A stretch of DNA of 33,455 bases from Chloroflexota bacterium (GTDB taxonomy: Bacteria; Chloroflexota; Chloroflexia; Thermobaculales; Thermobaculaceae): contig CADDYR010000009.1 of assembly GCA_902810765.1 (NCBI GenBank), forward strand, positions 1 to 33,455, written 5' to 3'. The notes below the pieces were generated by a model, which had not been told where the DNA came from, did not search any database, and saw only the letters and a program-made list of their open reading frames with translations. The position numbers and the translations under genes were made by a program. Below are positions 27,531 to 28,999 of the stretch, piece after piece (the stretch's first letter is position 1; every line of letters starts with the position of its first letter).

Positions 27531-28099
27531 CTTTCTTGTCGCCGCTCGGCTCTCTCACGCCAGCCACACGGATTCTCGGCGTGCCATCTCGCGCTCCGAT
27601 TGCGAGTGGTGTCGTAGAAGAACAGGCCGCACTCCTCGCGCTCACATACCTTGAGGCGTGTCGGATCGCAGTCGGCCAGCTCTCGTACACAGGTCGAGGC
27701 GATACGCCCCACGAGGTCCTCGCCCACCGGCTGCTCGTCCAGATTTAGATCCAGTGTGAGGCGCTGGGTCCAGGCACAGCGTGATGCCAGCGAGTTGAGG
27801 AGCCTGCGCGATGCCTCGGGGATACGGCTTCCAGAACCTCGGGTAGAGCGTGCGTTGGAATGAGTCAGGGTTGTAACGATTTCTTCCAAGGCTTTGCGCA
27901 GCAGGCGCAGGTCCTCCAAACACACATCTATGTCGATCGGTGTGACGTCGGGCAGTAATCCCCACAAGAAGCCCTGAGCGGACTCCGGTAGTGCCAGTGG
28001 ATCCGTGTACGTAGAAGTTCTTGTTCCAGATGGCCTCCGCGGTCGTCGTGAGTTTGCAAGCGCCAGGACTACATCCGGGACTTCACATCGCGTTGCCAT
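27527..28099 (-). CDS. CGNR-type zinc-finger transcriptional regulator (variant motif)
   Basis: 190 aa. The C-terminus resembles the CGNR zinc finger: LKVCEREECGLFFYDTTRNRSARW, then HAENPCGWRERAERRQ. Two Cys in C-x5-C spacing are followed by a third position that is His instead of the usual Cys, and a final Cys, so zinc could be held by three Cys and one His. The signature itself reads CGWR rather than CGNR. The N-terminal part (DLRLLRKALEEIV ... RRLLNSLASR) fits the ABATE ligand-binding region of this family, which often controls stress or antibiotic genes. A GAGGTG site lies 9 nt before the ATG. It is the first gene of an operon with the MFS transporter, under a promoter buried in a long palindrome. 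Confidence 0.8.
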   Translation of the reverse strand: MATRCEVPDVVLALANSRRPRRPSGTRTSTYTDPLALPESAQGFLWGLLPDVTPIDIDVCLEDLRLLRKALEEIVTTLTHSNARSTRGSGSRIPEASRRLLNSLASRCAWTQRLTLDLNLDEQPVGEDLVGRIASTCVRELADCDPTRLKVCEREECGLFFYDTTRNRSARWHAENPCGWRERAERRQER

Positions 28100-28111
28100 T
28101 GCTCCACACCT

Positions 28112-28154
28112 CACATCTTCACGATCTATTAATACTATAGACCGTGAAGATGTG
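28112..28154. promoter_or_regulatory. 43-bp near-perfect palindromic operator
   Basis: Outer arms CACATCTTCACG (28112-28123) and CGTGAAGATGTG (28143-28154) match at 12 of 12. Inner TCTAT/ATAGA continue the symmetry after one mismatch, leaving 7 central bases. It covers the -10, the spacer and part of the -35 of the CGNR promoter, so a bound dimer or tetramer would block it. Confidence 0.75.
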
Positions 28155-28236: not shown

Positions 28237-28265
28237 TTGACTTCGAGGCGCAGAAGCAGTAATGT
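28237..28265 (+). promoter_or_regulatory. sigma70-type promoter of the GGDEF-RHH gene
   Basis: -35 TTGACT (28237-28242), 17-nt spacer, -10 TAATGT (28260-28265). Expected start near 28272, immediately before the ATACATATGTAT palindrome. Confidence 0.6.
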
Positions 28266-28273
28266 ATCTGTGC

Positions 28274-28285
28274 ATACATATGTAT
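28274..28285. promoter_or_regulatory. 12-bp perfect palindrome, possible RHH operator
   Basis: ATACATATGTAT, in an AT-rich patch unlike the surrounding DNA, about 3-14 nt past the predicted start site of the GGDEF-RHH gene. Size and symmetry fit a ribbon-helix-helix dimer site, making autorepression plausible. Confidence 0.5.
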
Positions 28286-28312
28286 ATTACGCACAATATG
28301 AGAGGTGAGGCG

Positions 28313-28999
28313 ATGGGATACCCCAACACGTTCGAGCTGGCCGCGACCGACAGGATGACCGGGCTGGCTACTGCGGACTACTTCAGGCACCTGCTTCGGG
28401 AGGAGCTGCTGCCACGGGCGAGGGAGTCGGATGGGCCGCTGAGCCTGTTCCTGTTCGACCTGGACGACTTCCTGGCCATCAACCAGAGGCACGGGCGCGG
28501 GGGAGGCGACGCGGTGCTGACGAGGGTCGCGGGCGCGCTCACGGAAGCCCTGCCCGAGACCGCCGTGCTCACCCGGTACGGCGGGGACGAGTTCGGGGGC
28601 GCGCTGCCCGACACCCGCCTGGACGATGCTTTCACCCTCCTCGAGGAGCTCAGAAGGAGGGTGGGCTCGCTCGAGTTCGAGGGGCTGCCGGGCGTGCGCA
28701 TCACCTGCTCGATCGGGCTCGCGGCGTTCCCCATTCATGGTCAGACCGACGCGGAGCTGATGCGGCAGGCGGACGAGGCTCTCTACATCGCGAAGGAGAG
28801 CGGGCGGAACAAGGTCGCGCTGCCCCTCGCGGACAGCCGGATGGTCACGAAGACGAGCTACTACACTCAGACCCAGCTCGAGAGGCTGTCGAGGCTCGCG
28901 AAGACGCTCGGGCGGAACGAGGCGAGCATCCTGCGAGAGGCGCTCGACGACGCGCTGAAGAAGTACAACGATCAGCTGGGCGCCCCACCCGAACGGTGA
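28313..28999 (+). CDS. GGDEF-domain protein fused to a C-terminal ribbon-helix-helix DNA-binding domain
   Basis: 228 aa. Residues about 10-170 form a GGDEF (diguanylate cyclase) domain: ATDRMTGL start, metal site LFDLDDFLAIN, intact YGGDEFGG at Gly90-Phe94, and DEALYIAKESGRNKV near its end. The RxxD inhibitory site five residues before GGDEF is absent, and the usual Lys of DxFKxIN is Leu. Residues about 180-217 (TSYYTQTQLERLSRLAKTLG then RNEASILREALDDAL) read as a CopG/Arc-type ribbon-helix-helix: a short strand followed by two helices. There is no sensor or membrane segment. The ATG at 28313 has GAGAGGTGAGG upstream; ATG 28298 is possible. It likely makes or binds a cyclic or plain guanine nucleotide and binds DNA. 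That link is inference. Confidence 0.85.
   Translation: MGYPNTFELAATDRMTGLATADYFRHLLREELLPRARESDGPLSLFLFDLDDFLAINQRHGRGGGDAVLTRVAGALTEALPETAVLTRYGGDEFGGALPDTRLDDAFTLLEELRRRVGSLEFEGLPGVRITCSIGLAAFPIHGQTDAELMRQADEALYIAKESGRNKVALPLADSRMVTKTSYYTQTQLERLSRLAKTLGRNEASILREALDDALKKYNDQLGAPPER

Follow-up and report, generated by a model that had tools for sequence, protein, structure and literature searches.

The window, the 33,455 nucleotide stretch of Chloroflexota DNA that was analysed here, encodes a protein with a GGDEF domain followed by a ribbon-helix-helix (RHH) tail at the C-terminus. Three things were computed directly: this fusion, how far it is conserved, and an operator-like element confined to the promoter of this gene. 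We consider it fairly probable that this is a self-regulating GGDEF protein, in which the RHH dimer would repress its own promoter and also pair the GGDEF domains, with a probably modest synthesis of c-di-GMP. Cyclases usually act via a diffusible product that is read by separate effectors; here, a phylum-wide family would have its cyclase-type domain wired directly to DNA, and the dedicated target appears to be a single one. No published GGDEF-RHH fusion was found in the literature searched, which was open access with few subscription papers, and in which the papers on CdbA and AmrZ were found. To judge from the sequences, what is new is the joining of GGDEF to an RHH tail that would act as an autoregulator in the manner of PutA.

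Gene and domain architecture

A sequence-only reading had given the reading frame, strand and coordinates of the gene correctly. The ATG at 28313 is likely the start codon, since it has a ribosome site (GAGGTGAGG) and aligns with all close homologues. A longer version beginning with the ATG at 28262 is disfavoured because operator-like DNA would then be translated. The features of the gene are:

28313..28999, plus strand: gene for the GGDEF-RHH protein (228 amino acids plus stop)
28340..28813, plus strand: GGDEF domain, residues 10-167 (Pfam PF00990, E 4.9e-32; AlphaFold mean pLDDT mostly 85-94)
28472..28474, plus strand: Leu54, replacing the equivalent of PleD Lys332
28580..28594, plus strand: GGDEF signature, residues 90-94 (G91, D92, E93 and F94 invariant in 15 homologues)
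28835..28972, plus strand: RHH tail, residues 175-220 (expected strand at about 177-184, helix A 186-198, helix B from 201)

The GGDEF domain scores 111.4 bits with the Pfam profile (cut-off 23.8) and 118.6 bits with the NCBIfam profile TIGR00254 (cut-off 37.4), and the intact motif that had been read at residues 90-94 is confirmed within the Pfam match. A sensor domain located N-terminal of GGDEF was found neither with Pfam nor in the AlphaFold model of the window protein.

The C-terminal RHH segment proposed from the residue pattern was searched with profiles and recovered by RHH_3. In the full protein the match at residues 181-219 reaches 20.8 bits, slightly below the cut-off of 21.6, but the tail alone passes it with 24.0 bits, and 14 of the 15 homologues match at E <= 0.01. 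AlphaFold predicts one helix at 186-198 and another at 201-222, both at a modest confidence that is below that of the GGDEF part. The strand is unformed in this monomer model, which fits strand pairing only in the dimer without demonstrating it. With the tail model as query, the best 12 Foldseek matches are all RHH proteins, but weak ones (E 0.75 or more), including VapB, ORF56, PutA, CopASO, CdbA, TacA2 and CopG. Comparison with CopG alone (profile search, hhalign) gave a signal too weak for use, and the designed repeat proteins matched by phmmer in the PDB were discarded as a composition artefact. RHH proteins bind as paired dimers to short repeats, with their strands inserted into the major groove (PMC7156744). 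The parts of the tail that correspond to the DNA-contacting regions of RHH proteins, namely the strand and the beginning of helix 2, rank with the best-conserved residues of the family.

The fusion is spread over the phylum

Far from being absent from the homologues, the RHH tail is present in 28 genomes from six Chloroflexota families, and in 27 of these it lies in one frame with the GGDEF motif; the exception is G604, where the frame is disrupted in its contig. Thus, the search for the same architecture in other Chloroflexota upheld the fusion as real, on the grounds of profiles and reading frames, while the idea of an isolated oddity has to be given up. The close homologues G001, G005 and G006 belong to the same family as the window and are about 70% identical, and further ones (G037, G074 and G082) come from two other families of its class. 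A phylum sample yielded the tail in the families f27, f43 and f63, and a class search found it in 19 f43 genomes. Within the class of the window the distribution is patchy, with seven tail homologues among 158 genomes, a count that excludes an antitoxin-like RHH match in G009. This match, next to a PIN-like gene, was rejected as a fusion; the small RHH protein and its PIN-like neighbour (L068) are likely an ordinary toxin-antitoxin pair. The whole-genome tail searches covered Chloroflexota genomes, and restriction to this phylum is thus unproven.

The fusion is not a metagenome artefact, since the G037 assembly consists of three contigs with 99% completeness. A mobile origin was discarded as well: matches in viral contigs were remote and confined to GGDEF (24-33% identity), and no tail homologue was found among plasmids. 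The RHH half is better conserved than the GGDEF half, with 83% versus 67% identity between the window and G005 and 96% versus 85% between G005 and G006. dN/dS, calculated for those pairs that allowed it, is well below 1 in both halves, showing purifying selection. In addition to an intact GGDEF-RHH gene, G607 contains a second tail on another contig, split over two frames (L095, L112), which suggests a decaying paralogue or an assembly error.

An operator-like element in the promoter

Upstream of the gene the following features were located:

28237..28265, plus strand: core promoter, TTGACT-17 nt-TAATGT, with the same layout in homologues
28274..28285, plus strand: palindrome ATACATATGTAT, candidate RHH operator, 3´ of the -10 and 5´ of the ribosome site
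28286..28299, plus strand: expected second operator half, found 14 bp further on in close homologues and weak in the window

A strict consensus promoter scan did not flag 28237..28265, and the layout rests on the comparison with homologues: the close ones have TTGACA at the equivalent position, and their TACATA units have a spacing of 14 bp. Upstream of 25 of the 26 family genes with readable upstream DNA, a paired TACATA/TATRTA element is located around the -10 and the start codon. In f27 the -10 is flanked by two copies of ATACATATGTA, and in f43 the arrangement ATATATGT-N5-CGATATATG lies over the -10 and often over the start codon too. For G225, which has a divergent N-terminus, the upstream DNA shown contains no operator-like element. 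Operator words occur 99 times in 24 promoters, with 20.5 expected from dinucleotide shuffling and no more than 34 in any of 500 shuffles; taken singly, a few promoters, including that of the window (P 0.15), are not significant. A similar element is present in a 25th promoter (G602), beyond the 24 counted. Two homologues that turned up only once the motif was fixed, G082 and G074, carry it too, G082 in a different arrangement.

The two-site pattern ATACATAYRTN5WACATAT, allowing up to one mismatch, has one match each in the genomes G001, G005 and G006, always in this promoter (control count 0); with up to two mismatches, the related pattern of the distant family f43 matches only this promoter in nine of ten genomes (control 0) and is unmatched in the tenth. 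Since these promoters themselves served to derive the patterns, the weight of the result lies in the absence elsewhere and in the homologues found later. In the genome of the window the palindrome occurs once more, within an rpoB-like coding frame, and this copy was discarded as a site for that reason. The second replicon of G037 carries one operator-like site with a single mismatch (L073, around G037:C2:87791).

Throughout, the sites lie on or beside the -10, the start point or the start codon. As the operator-like element is almost confined to the promoter of this gene, DNA binding by the RHH tail is very probable, and so is regulation by the protein of its own production. The sites are placed where bound protein would block RNA polymerase; self-repression rather than activation is therefore the simplest reading, as in PutA. 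The earlier proposal of a transcription factor, which had not taken in the promoter element, is thus supported as far as DNA binding by the tail is concerned, but a general regulator is not what the promoter data point to, and the picture shifts towards self-regulation. In several f43 loci (L105, L103, L109) the start codon lies inside the second operator-like copy (CGATATATGG); the mRNA is therefore maybe leaderless, and bound protein would cover the start codon.

The GGDEF active site

The catalytic residues of PleD are D327, K332, N335, D344, D/E370, K442 and R446 (PMC6629876). Six of these seven are kept in the lineage of the window, as D49, N57, D66, D92, K161 and R165; D49, N57, D66, D92 and K161, together with E93, are invariant in 15 homologues. 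The two deviations pointed out by the sequence-only reading are both found. At the Lys332 equivalent the window protein has Leu54, and the other family members have L, M, V, H, Y or Q, with K in G422 only, whereas all 34 GGDEF domains used for comparison have K (32) or R (2). In place of the RxxD I-site, absent from the family, the window protein has PETA; RxxD, a product-inhibition site that is common among GGDEF domains but not universal, is present in 30 of the 34. Family f43 is additionally without the Arg446 equivalent, having Gly there (Ser in G607). All seven catalytic residues are present in G422 from family f63, and the changes in the active site therefore probably arose within the family.

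Cyclase activity of the window protein is plausible on these grounds. Considering Leu54, the lack of RxxD and the loss of the Arg446 equivalent in f43, activity may however be low or absent, and for f43 a sensing role appears more likely.

Alternative explanations

The main alternative is that the GGDEF domain has ceased to be a cyclase and serves as a sensor of GTP or c-di-GMP, which would make the protein a one-component transcription factor for its own gene. We regard this as a serious possibility, though on balance doubtful. The loss of the Lys332 equivalent everywhere but in G422, the absent I-site and the replaced arginine in f43 would all fit, and so would the invariance of the residues for guanine and metal, which is consistent with binding without turnover. 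A precedent exists in MabR of the PucR family, where a non-catalytic GGDEF-like fold is combined with a helix-turn-helix domain (PMC11617747). Unlike in MabR, however, the GGDEF signature and the acidic residues for metal and general base are strictly kept in this family, and the near-complete catalytic set in the lineage of the window, complete in G422, speaks against this alternative.

The other alternatives concern the tail and the promoter. RHH folds are obligate dimers, and GGDEF enzymes act as dimers; in a protein without a sensor domain the tail might be a dimerisation module only, replacing a sensor or coiled coil without binding DNA. This is improbable, since the families share a conserved operator-like element that is close to unique to the promoter of this gene, and since the DNA-touching parts of the tail are strongly conserved. 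Somewhat less improbable, but still unlikely, is that the element belongs to the core promoter or leader or is the site of another regulator. The overlap with the -10 and the start codon in f43 would allow it to be partly a promoter or initiation signal; yet in the family of the window the -10 does not coincide with the element but precedes it, and a general signal should not be absent from the other promoters of the same genomes, as these patterns are. Furthermore, the flanking genes vary between families, which makes it unlikely that these loci have a local regulator in common apart from the encoded protein. That the tail is the captured antitoxin of a toxin-antitoxin pair would agree with its weak matches to RelB-like and Antitox_RHH models, but is hardly credible: neither a toxin gene nor a conserved partner was found beside the GGDEF-RHH gene in the loci read, and five neighbours gave the Pfam assignments Bac_luciferase, AP_endonuc_2, DeoR, MFS and a CGNR regulator.

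Proposed mechanism and known systems

For the self-regulating GGDEF protein we infer the following course. The RHH tail would form a dimer and probably higher assemblies too, and this dimer would bind the paired TACATA/TATRTA element in its own core promoter, blocking transcription. The same dimer would join two GGDEF domains in place of the missing sensor or stalk. In the lineage of the window, a modest synthesis of c-di-GMP by the GGDEF domain is probably retained, and without an I-site the output would be limited by transcriptional feedback and not by product inhibition. It might also be that the protein works as a DNA-anchored second-messenger switch, in which binding to the operator sets c-di-GMP synthesis by bringing the two GGDEF domains into line or moving them apart, and DNA binding is itself controlled by bound GTP or newly formed c-di-GMP. 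Such coupling appears rather unlikely to us; if true, the gene would be a self-contained feedback unit that substitutes for the lost I-site.

The closest parallel to the proposed self-regulating protein is trifunctional PutA, which is both an enzyme and, through its RHH domain, an autogenous repressor (PMC5293562). In both proteins an enzyme-type domain is joined to an RHH domain, which in PutA represses its own promoter and is predicted to do so here, and PutA structures are among the best, though weak, fold matches of the tail. This is an analogy and not membership: PutA is a flavin proline dehydrogenase, an unrelated enzyme with the RHH domain at the N-terminus instead of the C-terminus, and it controls the put regulon in response to proline. 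With Pfam, the window protein has GGDEF and RHH only, and proline dehydrogenase and P5C dehydrogenase domains are absent. CdbA of Myxococcus xanthus, another fold match, is an RHH protein linked to c-di-GMP, in which binding of DNA and of c-di-GMP are mutually exclusive (PMC7156744). In contrast to the window protein, CdbA is a free-standing small protein without GGDEF, with many genomic sites and a role in the nucleoid. AmrZ is likewise an RHH regulator tied to c-di-GMP control, but it targets separate cyclase genes and has no GGDEF fusion. PleD and WspR share the GGDEF fold and, for PleD, all catalytic residues but one with the window protein, which differs in lacking a sensor, a receiver and the I-site, in the leucine for Lys332 and in the C-terminal RHH tail. 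In PucR and MabR a GGDEF-type fold is also joined to a DNA-binding domain, but the fold is GGDEF_2 without the signature motif and the partner is a helix-turn-helix instead of RHH (PMC11617747).

Little was found on c-di-GMP in Chloroflexota in the open-access literature searched. The GGDEF-RHH family could serve as a small, readily testable system for transcriptional feedback involving c-di-GMP, and the analysis yields an operator prediction for a family of this phylum that is still uncharacterised.

Flanking genes

The gene appears to stand alone in most loci, with a promoter to itself. A gene for a luciferase-like oxidoreductase begins 49 bp downstream of it on the same strand in the window, and read-through is therefore possible there. 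On the other side, a divergent CGNR/ABATE regulator gene is located at about 27539-28111 on the minus strand, followed by an MFS transporter gene. At its 5´ end, positions 28113-28153 contain a near-perfect inverted repeat (ACATCTTCACG...CGTGAAGATGT), a candidate operator of this regulator-transporter pair.
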